From the NCBI GenBank assembly GCA_025453925.1, contig JALOPK010000078.1, positions 1-11,699 on the forward strand: DNA of 11,699 bases, given 5' to 3'. Both the position numbers and the translations under genes were made by a program. The notes beneath the pieces are model-generated. The model searched no databases, was not told the DNA's origin, and saw only the letters and a list, made by a program, of their open reading frames with translations. This document shows positions 1,814 through 11,699 of this stretch, one piece after another (positions within the stretch are counted from its first letter, which is position 1; each line of letters opens with the position of its first letter). Source of the stretch: Candidatus Eiseniibacteriota bacterium (GTDB lineage Bacteria; JAFGKV01).

Positions 1814-1849
1814 CTACGGAGAAATCCACCAGTTCAGTGGGAGGTATGC

Positions 1850-3322
1850 ATGATTCCGTCGTCCGCACCATCGACGACACGAGTCCTCGTGGCCAGCGGC
1901 GACCTCCGGCTGCGCAAACTCATGCGCATAGCCTTGGACGAGGTCGGCGGGCCGCCCATCGAGGCGACCGACGGCATGACGCTGATCCGCGAAGCATTTG
2001 CCTCGCATCCCGACATCATCGTGATGCAGCGTGAGCTTCCGGATCAGGATGGCCTCCAGGTGCTTGCGCGCCTGAAGCAGGAACTGCAGCGACCTCCTGT
2101 CATCGTGGTGACACGGGGGACCGATGCTGATGCCCGCCTGGTGTGTTTCGCGGCTGAAGCCGATGACGTCGTGTCCATTCCATTCGACGCACGCGAGTTG
2201 AAGGCACGCGTGGAGGCCGTGGTGAGGCGCAGCCGGTCACGGACTCCCGGCATCAGGAACACCTTCGCGGAAACGCACCTGATCCAACTGGCGGGAAATG
2301 TCTTCGACACGTTCGTTGAGGGGCGCTCCAACCGCGCGGCGGTGGAGGCGGCACGGGAAGTGGCGGAACGCCCGGGCAAGCGATTCAACCCCCTGTTCAT
2401 CTATGGCCCGCCCGGCGTCGGCAAGACGCATCTCCTCGGATCAATCGGCCATCACTTAGCGAGCACCGCCCCCGATCTCACGCTGCTGTACGTCTCCGCC
2501 ACCGAGTTCTCCAACGAGTACTTGACGGCCATTGCATCAGGTGAGACCGAGCTGTTCTGGAGTAAGTACGGGCACGCAGATGCCCTGCTTCTAGACGACC
2601 TCCAGTACCTGGGAGGCGGGAACCTTGTCGAGGACACCGCGCGATTGGTGAGAGAAATGGCGGAGCACGGGCGACAGGTCGTTGCGTCCAGCGACCGGAC
2701 CCTGGAAGAGCTGCGCCCCGCGATCAAGGAACTCGGATCGGTGCTGGAGAAAGGGCTGGTGGCCAAGATCGATCTCCCCGACCGGGAGCACCGGTTCCGG
2801 ATTCTCCAGACGCAAGCGGTCATCAATAAATGGAACCTCCCTGATGCAATGTTGAATCTCATCGCCGACGTCGTGGCAAGCGATGCGCGCTCCCTGCAGG
2901 GCGCAGCCAGGAAGCTGGTCGCCATTCGCACCATCCAGGGTGGCGTGCTGACGACCGAGTCCGCCAGGTATGCGCTCAGAGATCTGGCCCAGGGAGAGGA
3001 GGTGGTGACGGATGCGGCCTTCAGAGTCACGTCGTCATCTGCTGCTCTCCGGCCGCTGGAGTCAGGGTCGTATGAGCTCGGTGAGGCAGAAGAGCGCCCC
3101 CCTCAGCCATCCCGCCGCGCAACAGATGGCCCTCCCCGCGAGTGGAAGCCGCCCACGGAATCCACACCCGACCCCGCTTCCATTACGCCACGCGGGCCAT
3201 CGCCGCTCGACACGAGGCCGACACGGCGGGCCCAGCCGCCAACGCCCGCGCCTGTGGACGCTGAAGACGGCGAGGATGACTCCCCGCGCCACCACTGGTA
3301 TGACCGATTGCGCGGCAAGTGA
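1850..3322 (+). CDS. Pseudo-receiver (REC-like)/DnaA-type AAA+ ATPase fusion lacking the DnaA DNA-binding domain
   Basis: 490 residues. Residues 11-126 align with a response-regulator receiver, but the phosphoacceptor Asp is Gln60 (IIVMQRELPDQDG), the acidic pair is Ser16-Gly17, and the conserved Lys is Ile110 (ADDVVSIPF). Thr88 remains. It should not be phosphorylated in the usual way. Residues 150-375 are DnaA domain III: FVEGRSNR (155-162), FNPLFIYG (179-186), Walker A GPPGVGKTH (186-194), the DnaA initiator-specific region (FSNEYLTAIASGETELFWSKY), Walker B LLLDD (246-250), sensor 1 SSDR (280-283) and sensor 2 SDARSLQG with Arg347. In box VII the arginine-finger position is Val298. The normal domain IV (helix-turn-helix for DnaA boxes) is absent. 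In its place is a Pro-rich, charged, probably disordered tail (about 400-480) ending HHWYDRLRGK. It is therefore unlikely to be the replication initiator. Hda, another DnaA-like ATPase without domain IV, is the nearest analogy, but Hda uses the arginine finger missing here. A scaffold or regulator role is inference. Confidence 0.9.
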   Translation: MIPSSAPSTTRVLVASGDLRLRKLMRIALDEVGGPPIEATDGMTLIREAFASHPDIIVMQRELPDQDGLQVLARLKQELQRPPVIVVTRGTDADARLVCFAAEADDVVSIPFDARELKARVEAVVRRSRSRTPGIRNTFAETHLIQLAGNVFDTFVEGRSNRAAVEAAREVAERPGKRFNPLFIYGPPGVGKTHLLGSIGHHLASTAPDLTLLYVSATEFSNEYLTAIASGETELFWSKYGHADALLLDDLQYLGGGNLVEDTARLVREMAEHGRQVVASSDRTLEELRPAIKELGSVLEKGLVAKIDLPDREHRFRILQTQAVINKWNLPDAMLNLIADVVASDARSLQGAARKLVAIRTIQGGVLTTESARYALRDLAQGEEVVTDAAFRVTSSSAALRPLESGSYELGEAEERPPQPSRRATDGPPREWKPPTESTPDPASITPRGPSPLDTRPTRRAQPPTPAPVDAEDGEDDSPRHHWYDRLRGK

Positions 3323-3379
3323 CCGATGGCCGACCCAGTGAGACGGACTGAGGAGCCTTCCCCGCTGTGGGAGGCAACG

Positions 3380-3772
3380 ATGATGCTTGGGGACCGAGGG
3401 CTCTATGAAGTGGCGTTCTTGCTGGCGACGGAATCGGCCATACGTCCCGGAGCACTGGATCAGGCCGTACTGGCACCAGGCTGGTACGTCTATACAGGGT
3501 CCGCCCGACGCAACCTCCGCGCGAGAGTTGCCCGCCATCTCCGCGGAAGCGCGAACCTTCGCTGGCATATCGACTACTTGCGGGCGTGTGTCCGTCCGGT
3601 CGCATGGCGACTCCACCCGCTGGGCAGCGGAACGGAGTGCGATCTGGTCGAACAGGCCGTCAGTACGGGGCAGGCGATTCGGCATCCTCGGGGCTTCGGC
3701 TCATCGGACTGCCGGTGCGGCGGGCATCTCACCCACCACGTCGGTCCGCCCCCATGGGTGGCGCCACAGTGA
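3380..3772 (+). CDS. GIY-YIG nuclease family protein of the COG1833/DUF123 (Uri-type) group
   Basis: 130 residues from ATG 3380. That start is preferred because GGGAGG lies about five bases upstream and the protein then begins just before the conserved GLYEVAFLL strand. An in-frame ATG at 3326, three bases after the previous stop, would add 18 residues but has no Shine-Dalgarno. Seen: GWYVYTGSA (34-42), the GIY-YIG core; RVARHLRG (49-56); RWHIDYLR (61-68); ECDLVEQ (86-92); and GFGSSDCRCGGHL (105-117), whose Cys111, Cys113 and His116 mark this group. The family is small, stand-alone and mostly uncharacterised, and is described as Uri-superfamily endonuclease by homology. Cleavage of DNA is therefore expected rather than shown. 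It is cytoplasmic, with no signal peptide. It sits between the DnaA-like gene and the phosphatase-fold gene, whose ATG overlaps its TGA, so it is very likely co-transcribed with both. Confidence 0.85.
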   Translation: MMLGDRGLYEVAFLLATESAIRPGALDQAVLAPGWYVYTGSARRNLRARVARHLRGSANLRWHIDYLRACVRPVAWRLHPLGSGTECDLVEQAVSTGQAIRHPRGFGSSDCRCGGHLTHHVGPPPWVAPQ

Positions 3773-4833
3773 TGAGATCTCCGAGCCGGGCACTCTTCGC
3801 TCTGCTGTGGCTCGGCACGGCGGCGTTCGCCGGCGTGGTGATCGCACTCAGGTTCTCGGCGACGCCAGGCCGCATGCTCATCCCGCTCTCCGCATACCTG
3901 CCGTTCCTCATCATCCCCTTCGCCGTCATGACCGCGGCCATCGCCCTCCTGTTCCGACGCTGGGGTCGCACCCGATTCGTCCTCGCCTGCGCCGCGCTGC
4001 TCCTCGCAGCCTTTGTCTATCTGCCTCGCCTCGTGCCGCGGCTCCAACCCCCGGCGGGCTGTATGGTTCGCGTCGCGACCTGGAACGTGTTCCTTTGCAG
4101 GTACGGGGTTTCGGGGATCAGGGAGACCATCGGCCGGCTCGGGGCGGACATTCTCGCCCTTCAGGAAGTCGTCGGATCGGAAACCGACACCACCGACTGT
4201 CCTCAGTTGGAGGCGCTCGTGAAGCCGATGGGGTACCGGTGGGCCTTCGTCGGCTACCGCCCGGGGAGGCCCGGCCGGCAGCCGGGTATCGCGATTTGCG
4301 TCCGCGACCCCGTGAAGCTGCTCTCTGTCGAGCGACGTACGTACCACGCGGCGGGGCGTTGGCGTTACGTGTTCGCCGAGGTCGAGATCGAGGGGCGCAG
4401 GATCAACGTCGTCATTCCCCACCTCTACCCCTTCGCGTTCGGTACGGCGACCGGACAGGGACGCCACGACATCCGGACCACCGCCCGCCGGCTCGCCTAC
4501 CGGATCACCGCGACCACTCACTGGCACCTTCGCGAGGGTACCGAGCTTCTGCGCCTCGTCGGCACCTTCAGGGATCCGACTATCCTCCTCGGAGATTTCA
4601 ACACCGCGCCGGATCACCCGATCCACTGGAATCTGAGACGACACCTCACCGATTGTCTCAACGCCGCGGGCAAAGGTCTGGCGTCCACCTACACGTTTTT
4701 TCTTCCGGTACGGATAGACTATGTCTACGCGACGAAATCGATCCCGGTGCATGCGGCATCCGTGGTTCCCACTACCGCGTCGGACCACCGGCCGGTGGTT
4801 GCCCTGCTGGGCGTGCCATCAGCGGGGGAGTAG
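3772..4833 (+). CDS. Membrane-anchored endonuclease/exonuclease/phosphatase (EEP) family enzyme
   Basis: 353 residues. ATG 3772 shares one base with the TGA of the preceding gene, indicating translational coupling. An in-frame ATG at 3754 would add six residues. Three hydrophobic segments (about 7-27, 37-61, 68-86), with the Arg-rich FRRWGRTRF between the second and third, predict an extracytoplasmic C-terminal catalytic domain by the positive-inside rule. That domain has the complete EEP set: VATWNVF (Asn105), ILALQEVV (Glu132), VVIPHLYPF (His217), ILLGDFNTAPDHP (Asp275, Asn277), RIDYVYAT (Asp316) and SDHRPVV (Asp338-His339). EEP enzymes are metal-dependent phosphodiesterases acting on nucleic acids, phosphoinositides or sphingomyelin. 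The membrane-anchored bacterial members have no agreed substrate. The inferred outward topology argues against a role in intracellular DNA repair. No residue expected for catalysis is missing. Confidence 0.88.
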   Translation: MRSPSRALFALLWLGTAAFAGVVIALRFSATPGRMLIPLSAYLPFLIIPFAVMTAAIALLFRRWGRTRFVLACAALLLAAFVYLPRLVPRLQPPAGCMVRVATWNVFLCRYGVSGIRETIGRLGADILALQEVVGSETDTTDCPQLEALVKPMGYRWAFVGYRPGRPGRQPGIAICVRDPVKLLSVERRTYHAAGRWRYVFAEVEIEGRRINVVIPHLYPFAFGTATGQGRHDIRTTARRLAYRITATTHWHLREGTELLRLVGTFRDPTILLGDFNTAPDHPIHWNLRRHLTDCLNAAGKGLASTYTFFLPVRIDYVYATKSIPVHAASVVPTTASDHRPVVALLGVPSAGE

Positions 4834-4929
4834 CCTGACCGGTGTGATGCGACCCATGCTCGACACCGCGTGGAGTCCAGATGACGGCAAGTGATACACA
4901 TGTCGATTGTCACTGAGCGGGAGAAAGAC

Positions 4930-5337
4930 ATGGATCTCAGCGGGCTCTTGAACACCGAGCACTCGATCTCACACCTCGTCGATACCCTCGATACCGCCGT
5001 GGCGTTCGGCTCCGGCGGCGTCGAGGTCTTGGCCACGCCGGCCCTCGTGGCCCTGGCGGAAACCGCGGCGCGTGATGCAGTTCAGAAACTCCTTCCTCCC
5101 GGGTACACCACGGTGGGAAGCGTGATCAACCTTCGCCACCTGGCGCCGACGCCTGCAGGCCGGGAGGTTCGGGTCACGTCAAGGGTGATTGCCGTTGCGG
5201 GGCGGAGGATCACCTTCGAGGTAAGTGCCCGGGACGATGCAGGTACGGTGGGTGAAGGCGCCCACGAGCGCATCATCGTGGATCTGGCCCGATTCACTGA
5301 CAAGGCAGCCGCCAGGTTCCGGGGAATGCAGTCGTGA
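4930..5337 (+). CDS. FlK-type (fluoroacetyl-CoA thioesterase-like) hotdog-fold thioesterase
   Basis: 135 residues from ATG 4930, chosen because GGGAG (4919-4923) lies six bases upstream. Earlier in-frame starts (GTG 4891, ATG 4900) lack a Shine-Dalgarno. The block VLATPALVALAETAA, then VGSVINLRHLAPTP, then GEGAHERIIVDLARF is the FlK pattern. The catalytic triad is conserved at the FlK spacing: Thr36, Glu44 and His70 (FlK Thr42, Glu50, His76). Family members hydrolyse acyl-CoA thioesters. True FlK specificity for fluoroacetyl-CoA is confined to a few organisms and cannot be inferred, so a general short acyl-CoA thioesterase is the cautious call. The stop overlaps the GTG start of the peptidase gene (GTGA), so the two are translationally coupled. 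The 96 bases separating it from the phosphatase-fold gene hold no recognisable promoter or terminator. Confidence 0.85.
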   Translation: MDLSGLLNTEHSISHLVDTLDTAVAFGSGGVEVLATPALVALAETAARDAVQKLLPPGYTTVGSVINLRHLAPTPAGREVRVTSRVIAVAGRRITFEVSARDDAGTVGEGAHERIIVDLARFTDKAAARFRGMQS

Positions 5338-7142
5338 ACACGCCGCCTGCGCGCAGAGAGGTGGCACGCGAACACCGTTGGAATCTGGAGCGGGTCTATC
5401 CCACCGACGAACAGTGGGAACACGACTTCAAGCTGACGGCGGATTTCGCCGCGGAGGCTGCGGCCCGCTCCGGCACAATCGGCGAATCCGCGGCCTCCCT
5501 CGCGGCCACCCTGGAGATGATCTTCGCCCACCGACGGGTGCTGGACAGGCTGGCCGTCTACGCGACGCACCGCCGGGACGAAGATCTCTCAGAAGGCCTC
5601 TATCAGGACATGGCATCACGGACGTCGTCGCGGATAACGGAGTATGCCGCGGCCACAGCCTTCCTCCGCCCCGAGATCTTCGCACTAGATGATTCCACCA
5701 TGGCGGCATGGCTTCTCAGACCAGAGCTGACCCCGTACGCAACCTGGATTGGCTACGTCCTTCGCTACCGCGCACACACGTTGAGTCAGCCGGAGGAACG
5801 GCTGCTCGCCATGGCCAAAGAGCCCATGGCGGGCTTCAGAAGAGCATTCGGCATGCTCAACAACACCGACCGGCCTCGTCGCCTGCCCACGATCCAGGAC
5901 GGACAGGGAGAGACCCGGTTGACCAATGCCAATCTGGCGAAGCTCCTGGAGTCCGGAGACCGGAAGGTGCGCGCCGATGCGTTCTCGGGGTTTTACGACG
6001 AACTCAGGGGCAACGTTGACACCCTTTCGGCGCTCCTTGATGGAGAGATCCGGACCCACGCCTTCGAGGCAAAGGCGCGCGGGTTCGCATCCTGCCTGGA
6101 AGCCTCATTGTTTCCGGATCAGGTGACCACGGCGGTCTATCAGTCGCTGGTGAATGCGGTGCGGGACGCGAGGTCCGGCATGCACGAGTACTTCCGATTG
6201 AAGCGGGATACGCTCGGTGTGCGGCCCTTGCGCATCTACGACGCGCTGGCGCCGATGGATAGTGCCGCACCTCGTGCGTACTCGTATGAGGAAGCGTGCA
6301 TTCTGGTCCTGGACGCGCTTGCCCCTCTGGGAGCGGAGTATGTCGAGAATCTCCGTTCCGGTCTTGCCTCGGGCTGGGTAGATCGGTTCGAGAACAGAGG
6401 AAAGCGATCGGGCGCGTACTCCGGCGGCAGTTTCGACACCTTCCCCTACATCCTCCACAACTTCAACGGCACGCTGGACTCGGTGTTCACGCTGGCACAC
6501 GAGGCCGGCCACTCGATGCACAGCCTTCTCGCGCGGCGGAATCAGCCGTTTCACCACGCCGACTATGCGATCCTCGTCGCCGAGGTGGCATCGGTGACCA
6601 ATGAAATGCTCCTGTTTCACTTCCTGAAACACCGCGAGCACGACCCTTGCAGCCGCGCCAGACTATTGAATCACCTCATTGGCGATTACCGTGCGACGGT
6701 ATTCCGGCAGACCATGTTCGCGGAGTTCGAGCGGTCCATTCACGAGCGGATTGAACGGGGTGGATCCCTCACCGCCGAGTATCTGAGCGAGTCGTACTTC
6801 TCACTTGTCCGCGACTATCATGGAAGCGCCTTTGACTTCGACGGCCCGGATCTGGCGATCCAGTTCGAGTGGGCCAGGGTGCCCCACTTCTACTACAACT
6901 TCTACGTCTACAAGTACGCGACGGGCATGGCGGCCGCCATCGACATCAGCAGGAGGATCCTGTCCGGGGAACCGGGATCCCGCCAGGGGTATCTCCGGAT
7001 GCTGGCCGCCGGGTCTTCACGTCCGCCGCTGGTGGCGCTCAGTGAAGCGGGGATCGATCTGGAGAGCGGCCGACCCATGGCGGCCGCCTTGAGCCAACTG
7101 CCGGGGCTCGTCGAGGAGCTTCGGGATCTCGTCCTTGCGTGA
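5334..7142 (+). CDS. pepF: Oligoendopeptidase F, M3-family zinc metallopeptidase
   Basis: 602 residues, the normal PepF length. It starts at GTG 5334, overlapping the previous stop by four bases; GGGGA lies about nine bases upstream. The N terminus EHRWNLERVYPTDEQWEHDF is a typical PepF opening. The zinc site is HEAGH (389-393), with the third ligand Glu417 in EVASVTNE. Ahead of it lie the conserved blocks ENRGKRSGAYSGGSFDTFPY and LHNFNGTLDSVFTLAH. RVPHFYYNFYVYKYATG (about 515-531) is the substrate-site helix with the tyrosines used by M3 peptidases. The usual HELGH is HEAGH, a tolerated change. There is no signal peptide, so it is cytoplasmic and expected to trim peptides of roughly 7-17 residues in peptide turnover. 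Coupling to a thioesterase gene is unusual and its meaning is unknown. The reading frame is intact. Confidence 0.95.
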   Translation: MNTPPARREVAREHRWNLERVYPTDEQWEHDFKLTADFAAEAAARSGTIGESAASLAATLEMIFAHRRVLDRLAVYATHRRDEDLSEGLYQDMASRTSSRITEYAAATAFLRPEIFALDDSTMAAWLLRPELTPYATWIGYVLRYRAHTLSQPEERLLAMAKEPMAGFRRAFGMLNNTDRPRRLPTIQDGQGETRLTNANLAKLLESGDRKVRADAFSGFYDELRGNVDTLSALLDGEIRTHAFEAKARGFASCLEASLFPDQVTTAVYQSLVNAVRDARSGMHEYFRLKRDTLGVRPLRIYDALAPMDSAAPRAYSYEEACILVLDALAPLGAEYVENLRSGLASGWVDRFENRGKRSGAYSGGSFDTFPYILHNFNGTLDSVFTLAHEAGHSMHSLLARRNQPFHHADYAILVAEVASVTNEMLLFHFLKHREHDPCSRARLLNHLIGDYRATVFRQTMFAEFERSIHERIERGGSLTAEYLSESYFSLVRDYHGSAFDFDGPDLAIQFEWARVPHFYYNFYVYKYATGMAAAIDISRRILSGEPGSRQGYLRMLAAGSSRPPLVALSEAGIDLESGRPMAAALSQLPGLVEELRDLVLA

Positions 7143-7163
7143 GGCAGCGCATATCCCGTCGGG

Positions 7164-7224
7164 CCGCGACACCGTGGTCTCGCTCCGAGATGCGCGTCTT
7201 TGTCGCTCAACCACGGTGTCGCGG
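7164..7224. repeat. Perfect 15-bp inverted repeat with a 31-base loop, after pepF
   Basis: CCGCGACACCGTGGT (7164-7178) and its exact reverse complement ACCACGGTGTCGCGG (7210-7224) flank a 31-base loop that begins CTCGCTCCGAG, itself able to form a small 4-bp hairpin. It starts 22 bases after the pepF stop and ends 24 bases before the ATG of the next gene. No T-run follows, so it is not a textbook intrinsic terminator. It could be an attenuating or stabilising mRNA stem, an operator with widely spaced half-sites, or a dispersed REP-like element. Confidence 0.7.
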
Positions 7225-7248
7225 AAGCGACCACAGAAGGGAGAACAC

Positions 7249-7809
7249 ATGTACAGGTTGCACCTCGCCGCGGTGTGCCTGCTCGCCCTGTGCGGCTTGG
7301 CAGGCTCGGGTGAGCTTTCCGGAGTGACAATGCCGGACACCATCATGGTGGACGACGGCACACTCGTTCTCAACGGGATGGGTCAGCGCAAGAAGATGTG
7401 GGTCGAGGTCTACGTGGGGGGGCTCTACCTCCCCGCGCGCTCCGCCGATGCCGGCCAGATCCTCGCCTCGGAGGGGCCGTGGCGATTGACGATGCACTTC
7501 CTCCACAAGAAGGTCGACAAGGAGAAGCTTGACGGCGCGTGGATGGACGGGTTCCGGAACAACTCACCTGACATCCTGACGTCCCACCCCGGCGACATCG
7601 AACGGTTCCTCTCCTGCTTCCCCGACATTTTCAAAGGACAGGAGGTGACCCTTACCCACCTCCCCGCAACGGGACTCCATGTGGCGGTCGCCGGGGAGAC
7701 GAAACAGTTGTTTGCTCCGGGCGTCTTCCCAAAAGCAGTGCTGGCAATCTGGCTCGGACCGCAGCCCCCGTCAGAAGACCTCAAGAAGGGCCTGTTGGGA
7801 ATCTCATAG
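7249..7809 (+). CDS. Exported chalcone-isomerase-like domain protein (Chalcone_3 type)
   Basis: 186 residues from ATG 7249. AAGGGAG (7237-7243) lies five bases upstream, and the start exposes a signal-peptide-like N terminus (residues 1-20, MYRLHLAAVCLLALCGLAGS). An open frame continues 38 codons upstream but has no better start and crosses the inverted repeat. The mature part has the bacterial chalcone-isomerase-like pattern: LVLNGMGQRKKMWVEVYVGGLYLP (about 39-62; Arg47 falls where chalcone isomerases carry their catalytic Arg), a LTMHFLHKKV strand, the AWMDGF helix, and the ending AIWLGPQPPSEDLKKGLLG. These bacterial proteins are not flavonoid enzymes. They are usually periplasmic, of unknown role, and probably bind a small hydrophobic or acyl ligand. 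A long gap from pepF suggests regulation partly separate from the upstream genes. Confidence 0.85.
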   Translation: MYRLHLAAVCLLALCGLAGSGELSGVTMPDTIMVDDGTLVLNGMGQRKKMWVEVYVGGLYLPARSADAGQILASEGPWRLTMHFLHKKVDKEKLDGAWMDGFRNNSPDILTSHPGDIERFLSCFPDIFKGQEVTLTHLPATGLHVAVAGETKQLFAPGVFPKAVLAIWLGPQPPSEDLKKGLLGIS

Positions 7810-7866
7810 GAGCCGCCGGGGCGTGGATTCCCACGCTCGCGGCGGACGCGAAGCCGGGCGGGCTCC
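7809..7866. terminator. Structured convergent junction, possible bidirectional terminator
   Basis: An inner hairpin GCGTGG (7821-7826) / CCACGC (7831-7836) with loop ATTC can be extended, after a small internal loop, by CCGCC (7813-7817) / GGCGG (7841-7845). Alternatively, GGAGCC (7809-7814) pairs with GGCTCC (7861-7866). It sits between the ends of the rightward chalcone-isomerase-like gene and the leftward TPR gene. No T-run is present on either strand, so factor-independent termination is uncertain. Confidence 0.4.
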
Positions 7867-7909
7867 GAAGCCATGAGCTGGTGCGCGTCATCCATCCGCT
7901 GCGGAGGAC

Positions 7910-10138
7910 CTACGGCCCTGCGAGGAGTTCTCTAACCTCCGGGGCAAAGATGCCCCCGGGCGCCAGCCGGAGGTACTCCGTGAACAGCGCATCCGCGGAA
8001 TCGCGCGACCCTTCGGCGAGCCGAATGCGGCCGAGGTGCCGATAGGGATCGGCCAGCTCGGGCCAGCGGTTGAGGACCATAGTGAGGAGGCTGTCGGCGG
8101 AACGAGTTCTCCCGAGCAACCACCGTGTCTCCCCGAGGTTGGTCCAGGCGACGCTCAGGCGGGGATCCAGGGCGGCTGCCCGGGAAAAGCTCGATTCCGC
8201 CGAAACGAGTTCCCCGCGGGTCCTCAGGGAAACCCCGAGGTCATTCGCAATGGTGGGATCCTCCGGAGCGACTCGCCCCGCCGCGGAGAGGAGTCGCGCA
8301 GCATCGGAGATTCTCCGCTGCTCAAGCGCCTCACGCCCCCAAGCTGCTAGCCGCGCGCCGGCATCTCGCCGCTGAAGGCCCCGCGTCACTGCTTCCTGCG
8401 CGGCAGCGAGCGCCAGCGTCTCATCGCCCGACAGGGCCAATGCCTGCGCCAAAGTCATCCATGTGGTCGAATCGACCTCCATCAGCACGGCTGCCCGGCG
8501 CAGGGGCGGAACCGCCCTCGCCGGTTCACCCATTCGCAGGTAGGTCAACCCGGCATTCAGGAATGCCGATGCCACAGTGCTGTCCCGCGCGATGACCTGT
8601 GCGAGGAGATCCAGCGCCTCCTGGTGCCGCCCCATGGTCCTCCATGTGCCGGCGAGATTGCTGGAGAACAGCGGATGGCCGGGAGCGAGCCTCAGGGCTT
8701 GGACAAAGCATGATTCCGCCTGCGCCAGCCCTCCGAGCTGATAGTAGGCGACTCCGAGGTTGTCCCAAGCGTCGGGGTTGATGCGATCCCGCACCAGCGC
8801 GGACTCACTGAGCGCCACCGCGCGGGCGGCAGAGCCGCGCCGGGTTTCCTCCAACGCCAGGTTGGTGTAGCCCAGCGCGGACTCAGGTGCACGGCGGGCA
8901 ACCCACGCGAAGAGGGCATGGTCGTCCACCCACTGCGCCGATGCGTGCCGGGCCACGACCACCCAGCCGAGAAGAAGGAGAATCGCCAGCCCTTGAGTTC
9001 CTCGACGACGCCACGGAAGTCCCCGCAGACCGAACACGAGCCCGAGGAGTGGCATGTACAGGAACCGCTCCGCCATGAACGACGGCCCCGCAAGCCTGAT
9101 GGGGACGACATTGATCACGGGGAGCAACATCATGGAGAACAACAGCACTCCATCGCGCAGCGACCCACGCAGGTGACCGGTGAGCCACGTCCACGCGACG
9201 ACGAACGCGAGTACAAGCCCCAGCCAGGCGCCCGGCTCGGTTGCAGACACCCCGGCGGCGTAGTGAACGGGATTGGGTAAGAAGGGAAACAGGGTGAAAA
9301 CGACGTAGCCCCAGATAGTCTTGCCGACCAGCATCATATGGTCCAGTGTGGTGCGAATAGGGATGGCCAGATCCCGGGAAACCACCAGCCCTCCAAGGAC
9401 CAAAGCCCTGAGGCCAAGGTATGCGGAGAAGGCGATGGCGTAGGGAAGGTATCCGGCGACGTGCCGCCTGAACCCTCCATGCTCGGTTCCCGGGCGCGGC
9501 CCCCTTGCAGGCCAGAGATGGCGGTCGCCATACCAGGCGACCAGGGGAAAGGTGACTGCCATCTCTTTGGAGGTCAGTGCGAGGAGATAGGCGACCGCCG
9601 CCGCCCAACGGGCACCACGGGACTCCAGGGCGACGGATCGCCGGTGCAAGAGGATCGCGCACAGGACCAGGAAGGTCGCCAATAGATCGAACCTGCTGGA
9701 GATGAACACAACCCCTTCGACCCGCGAGGGATGGACCGCGAAGACGGCGGCGGCAGCGCCCGCGGCCAAGGGCGAGCACCCGACGACTGCCAACAGCCGA
9801 ACGAGAAGAAGGGTCGAGGCACAGTGCAGAACGAGGTTCTCTACGTGGTACCAGACCGGCTGTGGCCCAAAGACCGAATAGTCGACGAAGAAGCTGAAGT
9901 AGCCCAGCGGCCGGAAATAGCTGGGGGAGATGATGAACAGGGAGCGCAGTGACGAGAGGATGAGTTCGGGACGACGGTAGTTGGGATGATCCAGGAGCAG
10001 AAGGTCGTCATCCCATACGAATTCACCACGCAAGCCCGGCCAGAACGCGACGACGATAAGTGCCAACAGGGCCGCTGACACCGCGATCCACGACCAGTTG
10101 CGTCGACCCGGCGTGCCGGCAGGATGAGGAGCCTTCAT
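7910..10138 (-). CDS. Multi-pass GT-C (TMTC/DUF1736-like) membrane protein with C-terminal TPR repeats
   Basis: 742 residues. The start ATG 10138 overlaps the priA stop in ATGA. Residues 1-400 carry about nine to ten hydrophobic segments. FVWDDD (40-45) after the first membrane helix is the acidic loop expected of a GT-C glycosyltransferase catalytic site. VHPSRVEGVVFISSRFDLLA (135-154), TSKEMAVTFP (189-198) and LPVINVVPIR followed by MAERFLYMPLLGLVFG (339-370) match the TMTC/DUF1736 pattern (N near ER-LY-P-G). From about residue 420 to 735 there are around eight tetratricopeptide repeats, for example AWDNLGVAYYQLGGLAQAES and AWTNLGETRWLLG. Eukaryotic TMTC proteins are O-mannosyltransferases. 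Bacterial relatives are common in GC-rich uncultured phyla and presumably use polyprenyl-phosphate sugars to glycosylate proteins or envelope polymers outside the membrane. The TPR part would hold the target. Substrate is unknown. Confidence 0.85.
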   Translation of the reverse strand: MKAPHPAGTPGRRNWSWIAVSAALLALIVVAFWPGLRGEFVWDDDLLLLDHPNYRRPELILSSLRSLFIISPSYFRPLGYFSFFVDYSVFGPQPVWYHVENLVLHCASTLLLVRLLAVVGCSPLAAGAAAAVFAVHPSRVEGVVFISSRFDLLATFLVLCAILLHRRSVALESRGARWAAAVAYLLALTSKEMAVTFPLVAWYGDRHLWPARGPRPGTEHGGFRRHVAGYLPYAIAFSAYLGLRALVLGGLVVSRDLAIPIRTTLDHMMLVGKTIWGYVVFTLFPFLPNPVHYAAGVSATEPGAWLGLVLAFVVAWTWLTGHLRGSLRDGVLLFSMMLLPVINVVPIRLAGPSFMAERFLYMPLLGLVFGLRGLPWRRRGTQGLAILLLLGWVVVARHASAQWVDDHALFAWVARRAPESALGYTNLALEETRRGSAARAVALSESALVRDRINPDAWDNLGVAYYQLGGLAQAESCFVQALRLAPGHPLFSSNLAGTWRTMGRHQEALDLLAQVIARDSTVASAFLNAGLTYLRMGEPARAVPPLRRAAVLMEVDSTTWMTLAQALALSGDETLALAAAQEAVTRGLQRRDAGARLAAWGREALEQRRISDAARLLSAAGRVAPEDPTIANDLGVSLRTRGELVSAESSFSRAAALDPRLSVAWTNLGETRWLLGRTRSADSLLTMVLNRWPELADPYRHLGRIRLAEGSRDSADALFTEYLRLAPGGIFAPEVRELLAGP

Positions 10139-11699
10139 ACCGTCTCCAATGGATCGATGTCCACCACCAGTCGCGTGCCATGATGGTCGCCGGCCCGGGC
10201 CAATGCGCTCTGCAGCCAGGCGTGGAGTCGAGAATGTGAGCGATGGAACACCAGCACGTGCCGGCGGTGGAAGCCTTTCATCCTCGGGAGCAAAGGAGGT
10301 GCGGGCCCGAGAAATCGTGCGCCCTGGCCCTCCCGCGTGGCGCGAAGACCCTCGGCAATGGAACGGGCGTGGGACTCAACCGCGTCAAGCATCTGACCTC
10401 GCACTTCCAGGCGCGCCAGGCGCGCAAACGGCGGGTAGCCCGCCTCCTTCCGATCCATCAGCTCGTCACGAGCGAATGATGCATAGTCGTGCCGGGCAGC
10501 GCACAACAGCACGGGGTAGTCCACCAAGAGACTCTGCAGGATCACCTCGCCGCCCGTGCGGCTTCGACCGGCCCTGCCGGCCACCTGGGAAAGAAGTTGA
10601 AACGCTCGCTCTCCCGCTCGGAAGTCCGGGAATTGCAGCGGAGTGTCGGCGTTGACGACCCCGACGAGCGTGACCTTCGGCAGATCGAGACCTTTGGCGA
10701 TCATCTGAGTTCCGACGAGCACGCTGGCCTCCTCACGCTCCATGGAGTCAATGATTCGCACGTGAGCGCCACGCGAACGGGTCGTGTCGCGATCCATGCG
10801 GAGGACGCGAAGCCTGGGGTGAAGCGATCGAAGCTCCTCCTCCACCCGCTCAGTTCCCACGCTCCCGAGCCCAAGTCGACGGCCTCCGCAAGATGGGCAT
10901 TCCTCCCCGGCAGGCTCCGCATAGTCGCAATAGTGACAGACGTGCCGCAGGTCGCGCCGATGAAAGGTGAGCGAGATGTCGCAGTCGGGACACTTGGGGA
11001 TGAACCCGCAGTCAGCGCACTGAACGGAGCGCGCATACCCCCTCCTGTTCAGGAGCAGCAACGCCTGCTCACCCCTCTCCAGCACTTCATGGAGCCGTCG
11101 CTGGAGAAGTGCAGAGAAGATCAGCGGTCCCTGGAGTCTTGGCTCGACGCGCATGTCCACGATGGAAACCGCGGGCAGGCGCCACCCATCGACCCTCTCC
11201 GGGAGCTCAAGAAGCACATGCTTGCCCGTGAGGCAATGCTGGTAGCTCTCCAGGCTCGGCGTGGCCGAGCCCAGGACTACGGGACACCCTGCCTGATGAG
11301 CTCGCATGATGGCGACATCGCGCCCGTGATAGCGGGGATCGCGTTCCTGTTTGTAGCTCGCATCGTGCTCCTCGTCCACCACCACGAGACCCAGCGATCG
11401 GACCGGCGCGAAGATGGCGGAACGGGGACCGATCACCAATGACGCCGGCATCGAGCTGGCACGCTTCCACGCGTCGTGTCGTTCCCCCGCGCTCAAGCCC
11501 GAGTGGAGCAGGATTACCCGGTCCCCGAGTCTGCCCCTGAACCGGGCGACCATTTGCGCGGTCAGTGCGATTTCCGGCACAAGGCAGAGCACGGATGATC
11601 CCTGATCCAACGCGAAAGCAGCCGCTGCCAGATAGACTTCCGTCTTCCCGCTTCCGGTGACGCCATGAAGCAAGAACGACGCGAACTGTCTGCGGGCCA
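10135..11699 (-). CDS. priA: Primosomal protein N', replication-restart helicase PriA; partial, 5' end beyond the window
   Basis: The frame is open from the right edge (ARRQFASFLLHGV...) to TGA 10137-10135, giving the last 520 residues; about the first 200, holding the DNA 3'-end-binding and winged-helix parts, lie outside. Seen in order: Walker A GVTGSGKTEVY; VPEIALT; Walker B VVVDEEHD with KQERDPRYHGRD after it; GSATPSLES; the zinc module with four CxxC pairs (CADC, CPDC, CHYC, CPSC); GTQMIAKGLDLPKVTLVGV; PDFRAGERAFQLLSQVAGRAGR; and a C terminus ending VVDIDPLETV. PriA is a 3'-5' DNA helicase that recognises stalled forks and D-loops and reloads the replicative helicase. All helicase motifs and eight zinc cysteines are present. 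A small deviation is KGLDLP where many PriA have KGHxFP. It is upstream of, and overlaps, the TPR membrane-protein gene. Confidence 0.97.
   Translation of the reverse strand, partial: ARRQFASFLLHGVTGSGKTEVYLAAAAFALDQGSSVLCLVPEIALTAQMVARFRGRLGDRVILLHSGLSAGERHDAWKRASSMPASLVIGPRSAIFAPVRSLGLVVVDEEHDASYKQERDPRYHGRDVAIMRAHQAGCPVVLGSATPSLESYQHCLTGKHVLLELPERVDGWRLPAVSIVDMRVEPRLQGPLIFSALLQRRLHEVLERGEQALLLLNRRGYARSVQCADCGFIPKCPDCDISLTFHRRDLRHVCHYCDYAEPAGEECPSCGGRRLGLGSVGTERVEEELRSLHPRLRVLRMDRDTTRSRGAHVRIIDSMEREEASVLVGTQMIAKGLDLPKVTLVGVVNADTPLQFPDFRAGERAFQLLSQVAGRAGRSRTGGEVILQSLLVDYPVLLCAARHDYASFARDELMDRKEAGYPPFARLARLEVRGQMLDAVESHARSIAEGLRATREGQGARFLGPAPPLLPRMKGFHRRHVLVFHRSHSRLHAWLQSALARAGDHHGTRLVVDIDPLETV

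Follow-up and report, generated by a model that had tools for sequence, protein, structure and literature searches.

Background

The AAA+ domain of DnaA, domain III, is usually regarded as a module of replication initiation. In Escherichia coli DnaA, Arg285, Arg281 and Arg227 serve the contacts between one domain III and the next, and the sensor-2 residue, Arg334, takes part in hydrolysing ATP in cis (PMC5742627). Receiver domains without the phosphoacceptor Asp are defined as aspartate-less receivers (ALRs), and many pseudo-receivers dimerise without phosphorylation, often through the alpha4-beta5-alpha5 face (PMC12632262). Pseudo-receivers and DnaA domain III are thus already known separately, and we found no description of a fusion of the two. 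The open-access literature yielded neither a published receiver-DnaA fusion nor a description of DnaA as the output of kinase-paired receivers, and DnaA is unmentioned in the main text of a pseudo-receiver review (PMC12632262) and of the ALR survey.

Here we describe such a fusion, encoded in an 11,699-nucleotide stretch of bacterial DNA (hereafter, the window). With DnaA domain III (PF00308; PDB 8bv3 and 2z4r, the latter from T. maritima) the window protein shares the AAA+ fold, Walker A and B motifs, sensor 1 and sensor 2 at about 36% identity, but it lacks domains I, II and IV and the equivalents of R227, R281 and R285, and it carries an N-terminal receiver. Like the pseudo-receivers and ALRs FrzS and RitR, it has a receiver fold devoid of the acceptor Asp, the acidic pair and the Lys, with a conserved alpha4-beta5-alpha5 face; unlike them, it has a DnaA-type ATPase as its output. 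FrzS itself consists of a receiver followed by a coiled coil and has no ATPase domain; the window protein shares its N-terminal pseudo-receiver but has the DnaA ATPase behind it. NtrC-type regulators also place a receiver before an AAA+ domain, and Foldseek lists NtrC1 and NtrX among the matches, but the AAA+ domain belongs to another clade, and a Pfam scan of the window protein up to E 1 gave neither a sigma54-activator domain nor a DNA-binding domain. Hda, too, is a DnaA domain III without domain IV; the window protein differs from it in having no arginine finger and no N-terminal clamp motif, in its added receiver, and in falling short of the TIGR03420 cut-off. In its own genome and those of two relatives there are receiver-DnaA and MshEN-DnaA paralogues, which form one DnaA-domain clade with it (support 97). 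The receiver-DnaA paralogues resemble it in the loss of interface residues but differ in having an intact phosphorylation site and, in 12 of 15 cases, an extra C-terminal domain; the MshEN-DnaA paralogues carry MshEN instead of a receiver.

Results

Domain organization of the window protein

The gene (1850..3322; this and the following features lie on the plus strand) starts with ATG, encodes 490 amino acids and is preceded by a Shine-Dalgarno-like GGAGG 5 nt upstream (1840..1844). Its product begins with a pseudo-receiver domain (residues 11-130; 1880..2239), recognized by Pfam as Response_reg (PF00072) at residues 13-122 with E 1.5e-14 and 54.5 bits against a cut-off of 30.2. In an AlphaFold2 model, made from a shallow 14-row alignment and not reliable for the lid, linker and domain arrangement, residues 11-130 form a (beta-alpha)5 receiver with block pLDDT values of about 83-95, which Foldseek matches to the VicR and KdpE receivers with a TM of about 0.93 and an rmsd of 1.3 Å. 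The receiver is followed by a DnaA-type AAA+ core (domain IIIA, residues 150-310; 2297..2779), which matches Bac_DnaA (PF00308) at 150-305 with E 1.7e-39 and 136 bits against a cut-off of 23, and PDB 8bv3/8btg with E of about 1e-40, and then by a lid (domain IIIB, residues 311-385; 2780..3004). The NCBIfam DnaA model TIGR00362 covers residues 149-384 and scores 212.7 against its cut-off of 343.9, a shortfall to be expected of a lone domain III. Among solved structures, the best matches were DnaA domain III (B. subtilis, T. maritima), then OmpR/PhoB-type receivers, and the modelled ATPase part resembles B. subtilis DnaA domain III (8bv3) in Foldseek.

Both DnaA_N and Bac_DnaA_C are missing from the Pfam scan of the protein. 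Where domain IV would be, there is a variable Pro-rich linker (3005..3283) with a three-way identity of 17% among orthologues and low pLDDT, inside which the motif GSYEL (residues 406-410) is identical in all three. The protein ends in a C-terminal tail (3284..3319) with the pattern W-[YF]-D-R-[LI] in 3/3 orthologues; its counterpart in the alignment with the paralogues is the R-x-W-L-x-x-A end of their C-terminal domain, of which it is perhaps a remnant.

The neighbours of the gene (6-1658 on the minus strand, and 3326-11697) are ordinary genes, encoding an ATP-grasp protein, a DUF123 protein, a member of the endonuclease/exonuclease/phosphatase family, an FlK-type thioesterase, a PepF-like peptidase, a chalcone-isomerase-like protein, a TPR protein and PriA. 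No histidine kinase and no pilus or motility gene is found among them.

Receiver and ATPase sites

Alignment with intact paralogues places Q60 (codon 2027..2029) at the phosphoacceptor Asp, S16-G17 at the acidic pair and I110 (codon 2177..2179) at the conserved Lys; the Thr position is retained (T88). With four of the five site residues gone, the domain fits the ALR class, and it combines the PF00072 fold with loss of the phosphorylation site, a loss seen in 3/3 orthologues. With these residues the receiver cannot take up phosphate by the ordinary route; its sequence is nevertheless strongly conserved.

In the ATPase, alignment shows K192 to be retained, within the Walker A motif GPPGVGKT (residues 186-193; 2405..2428), as are D249 and D250 in the Walker B motif LLLDD (246-250; 2585..2599), D282, and the sensor-2 R347 within the lid (2888-2890). 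In the box VII region (residues 285-301; 2702..2752) the finger position is V298 and the equivalent of E. coli R281 is E294; R227 (AID-1) corresponds to G241. The Lys of the post-Walker B loop (the ssDNA loop, GKE-TQ in ordinary DnaA) is absent. The protein therefore has the initiator's AAA+ domain III with Walker A/B and sensor 2, and lacks domain IV (PF08299), box VII Arg281 and finger Arg285. A sequence-only reading of this DNA had already described a dead receiver at residues 11-126, retained Walker motifs and sensor 2, Val298 in place of the finger, and the absence of domain IV. Pfam, AlphaFold2 with Foldseek, and the paralogue alignment agree with it on the receiver fold and its lost sites, the alignment and the Pfam scan bear out the rest, and the E294 and G241 substitutions are added here.

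Conservation among three orthologues

One orthologue is present in each of two relatives, Ca. Fermentibacteria JAFGKV01 and JAUXFG01, at 74% and 63% identity, and both are syntenic, with the same ATP-grasp and PepF neighbours. Of the three substitutions singled out from the sequence alone, V298 is conserved (V/V/V); the Lys position (I/I/M) and the acceptor position (Q/H/Q) are not strictly so, and an Asp acceptor occurs in no orthologue.

Identity between the window protein and its orthologue in genome G001 is highest in the receiver, at 88% (95% in alpha4-beta5-alpha5), followed by 87% in the lid, 75% in the ATPase core and 43% in the linker; these conservation statistics are thin, as there are three orthologues only and dS is saturated. 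In the receiver pN is 0.07 against a pS of 0.72, which is near saturation and makes the dN/dS values indicative only. The alpha4-beta5-alpha5 face is 85-100% conserved in pairs of intact paralogues, under a constraint that the dead receiver has therefore retained, not acquired.

Box VII behaves differently. In the same comparison 7/17 residues (41%) of 285-301 are identical, against 175/215 (81%) in the remaining ATPase (Fisher p 0.0006 uncorrected and about 0.008 after correction, for a region of prior interest among 15 segments tabulated), making it the least conserved ATPase segment in the trio. In five intact orthologue pairs the figure is 68/85 (80%), not significantly below the remaining ATPase. 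Box VII has drifted in the trio and not in the intact pairs, so that constraint on the finger face seems to have been lifted in the trio, with no such sign on the ATP side or on the face of the receiver.

The receiver-DnaA family

The window genome (3.9 Mb, 82% complete) encodes nine DnaA-domain proteins: the window protein, one ordinary DnaA, five other receiver-DnaA proteins, four of them longer by about 190 residues at the C terminus, and two MshEN-DnaA proteins. Both relatives hold similar sets. The ordinary DnaA (L010:6425-7828) has Bac_DnaA_C (domain IV) and is the separate, normal copy whose presence the sequence-only reading had wanted confirmed.

Receiver sites are intact in all 15 other receiver-DnaA paralogues of the three genomes, with the acceptor Asp in 15/15 and the Lys kept. 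HisKA/HATPase histidine kinases adjoin the intact members at L009, L012, L051, L053, L056 and L059, and some of the kinase genes overlap their receiver-DnaA neighbours or sit within tens of bases of them. Kinase control is accordingly a sound inference for those members, not for the window protein.

K192, D249, D250 and R347 are kept in 18/18 receiver-DnaA proteins, the trio included, R281 and R227 in 0/18 each, and R285 in 3/18 (L011, L054 and L057 only). Among the other DnaA domains, a set that takes in fusions from further phyla, R281 is kept in 68/68, R285 in 68/68 and R227 in 61/68, although some near-duplicate DnaA proteins are included and the 68 are not independent cases. In its sequences, the family has preserved the ATP site and been stripped of the filament contacts. 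The finger is missing in 12 of the 15 paralogues with intact receivers, so its loss is a family trait, and we rejected it as a feature specific to the window protein. The suggestion that finger loss equips the protein in particular to poison a DnaA filament falls with this, and L011, L054 and L057 supply what the sequence-only reading had named as evidence against itself, the same architecture with Asp and finger both intact. In a quick maximum-likelihood tree (SH-aLRT support only), the trio groups at 100, the trio with the other receiver-DnaA proteins at 90 and receiver-DnaA with MshEN-DnaA at 97, with the genome's own DnaA lying outside this group.

Only receiver-DnaA proteins carry the C-terminal domain of about 190 residues, of which each of the three genomes has four copies (for example L013:7333-7956 and L011:2268-2900 on the minus strand, with equivalents in L009, L012, L051-L057 and L059). 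It matched no Pfam family; its profile is colinear with the second G domain of the GTPase Der over 79 residues (E 0.008), ending near G5, and the domain is perhaps a GTPase domain in degenerate form. A second receiver was considered for this region and rejected, as HHalign gave no support. The short receiver-DnaA proteins (about 400 amino acids) are without the C-terminal domain, keep the basic loop after Walker B, and in two genomes come after the gene of a TPR protein (L014:4899-5522, L060:1285-1953).

Occurrence in other genomes

No receiver-DnaA fusion outside the three genomes came up when about 1,300 more genomes, 386 across many families (E limit 1e-70) and about 940 from six chosen phyla (E limit 1e-86), were searched with profiles, and a wide occurrence of such fusions was therefore rejected. 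In the 386-genome search, none of the outside matches listed starts before profile position 116, by which point most of the receiver has been passed. When members were left out of the profile, intact ones without the C-terminal domain were recovered at about 1e-112 and those diverged like the window protein at 1e-84 to 1e-88, so that the 1e-86 limit could miss members of the latter kind. In a viral_contigs scan with the family profile, matches end by query residue 195 and are mostly receivers only.

MshEN-DnaA genes form clusters in the two relatives (L050:4309-19244 and L049:4062-14341). The clusters include a 1993-residue protein, in which MshEN is followed by a DnaA domain, a long helical stretch and another DnaA domain, with arginine fingers intact, and they adjoin a prepilin peptidase and, in L050, also an MshEN-T2SSE ATPase. 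DnaA domain III without domain IV is also found in other lineages (L062:6643-8598, L103:893-2998, L063:6958-11001 and L105:480-5732; further loci at L099, L101, L102, L106 and L107), as tandem DnaA-DnaA, TPR-like repeats with DnaA, MshEN-DnaA, and DnaA with an unknown C-terminal part. Both box VII arginines are kept throughout. Several of these proteins group with receiver-DnaA in the tree (92), which hints at an ancient branch of DnaA that does not act as initiator.

Discussion

The interpretation we prefer, with a probability of about 0.45, is that the window protein is a lineage-specific receiver-DnaA pseudo-response-regulator, ATP-bound and DNA-free, which pairs through its receiver face and is tethered by its linker and tail. 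By sequence, its family has remade DnaA domain III, keeping the residues of the cis ATP site and giving up the DNA-binding domain and the residues of the contacts between protomers. The window protein would then bind ATP, have no action on DNA and form no DnaA-type filaments. Through its OmpR-type alpha4-beta5-alpha5 face it would pair with a second copy of the protein or with a receiver-DnaA paralogue under kinase control, the window protein serving as the phosphorylation-independent partner, and the linker, which is flexible, and the tail (W[YF]DR[LI]) would tether it to a further protein. As the intact members of the family adjoin histidine kinases, paralogues are the more likely partners, as shared ancestry would suggest.

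The stronger rival, though in our view unlikely, is a localization scaffold akin to FrzS, in which the pseudo-receiver docks at a pole or a machine, the ATPase acts as an ATP-dependent adaptor and the tail recruits pilus or motility cargo. FrzS likewise begins with an Asp-less receiver (PMC1974792), the sister MshEN-DnaA proteins adjoin a prepilin peptidase and a type II/IV secretion ATPase in the relatives, and a conserved tail after a disordered linker would suit recruitment; but the architecture of FrzS differs, pilus and motility genes are absent near the window gene, and the tail is just a few residues long in three sequences. A cap or poison of the DnaA filament, proposed in the sequence-only reading together with the scaffold, is improbable. 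The ATP-bound face would take the finger of DnaA and the degenerate box VII would stop further growth, and an intact cis ATP site beside a lost and unconstrained finger face gives a one-sided interface of the right geometry, in a genome with a normal dnaA, which keeps the idea possible. Against it, the same interface is lost in most members of the kinase-adjoining family, R227 (AID-1) is gone too, the protein is far from its own DnaA (33% identity), and domain I, domain IV and a conserved clamp-binding motif, through which it might be recruited to DnaA or oriC, are all wanting. The observations of the sequence-only reading hold and its interpretation as a whole is partly supported; with no domain I, clamp motif or ssDNA-loop Lys, the sequence gives no pointer to DnaA as the partner, and poisoning of the filament is possible but unsupported.

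We give very little credence to a decaying, functionless paralogue. The protein has indeed lost the acceptor site, the finger and the C-terminal domain relative to its paralogues, but the gene is intact and syntenic in three genomes with the same sites lost, and its receiver is 88% identical to that of G001 with a pN of 0.07 against a pS of 0.72; chance or a pseudogene was rejected on this synteny, the shared losses and the receiver conservation. Least credible is an Hda-like regulator, predicted to stimulate hydrolysis of DnaA-bound ATP. The protein shares with Hda a domain III without domain IV, but TIGR03420 scores 68.2 bits, far below the cut-off of 194.8, the finger is absent, and so is an N-terminal clamp motif throughout the trio, the sole match to a beta-clamp motif in a simple pattern scan being internal, at residue 363. 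On these grounds Hda identity was rejected.

The pseudo-response-regulator that we prefer may also belong to something wider. We entertain, as a fair possibility, a new class of two-component output, made up of kinase-paired regulators with a DnaA-derived AAA+ effector devoid of DNA-binding and filament contacts, mostly with a possibly degenerate GTPase-like C-terminal domain; the window protein would be its built-in phosphorylation-independent member, tuning the others.

Conclusions

In one bacterial lineage DnaA domain III has come to serve as the output of signal receivers, with the filament residues selectively lost and the ATP site kept, and the members of the family look like kinase-controlled switches with a DnaA core as their output. 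The presence of a pseudo-receiver and its phosphorylatable cousins in one genome makes the mechanism of the pseudo-receiver testable pairwise. The receiver-DnaA family as a whole offers a natural test for telling the DnaA residues that act in ATP sensing from those that act in assembly.
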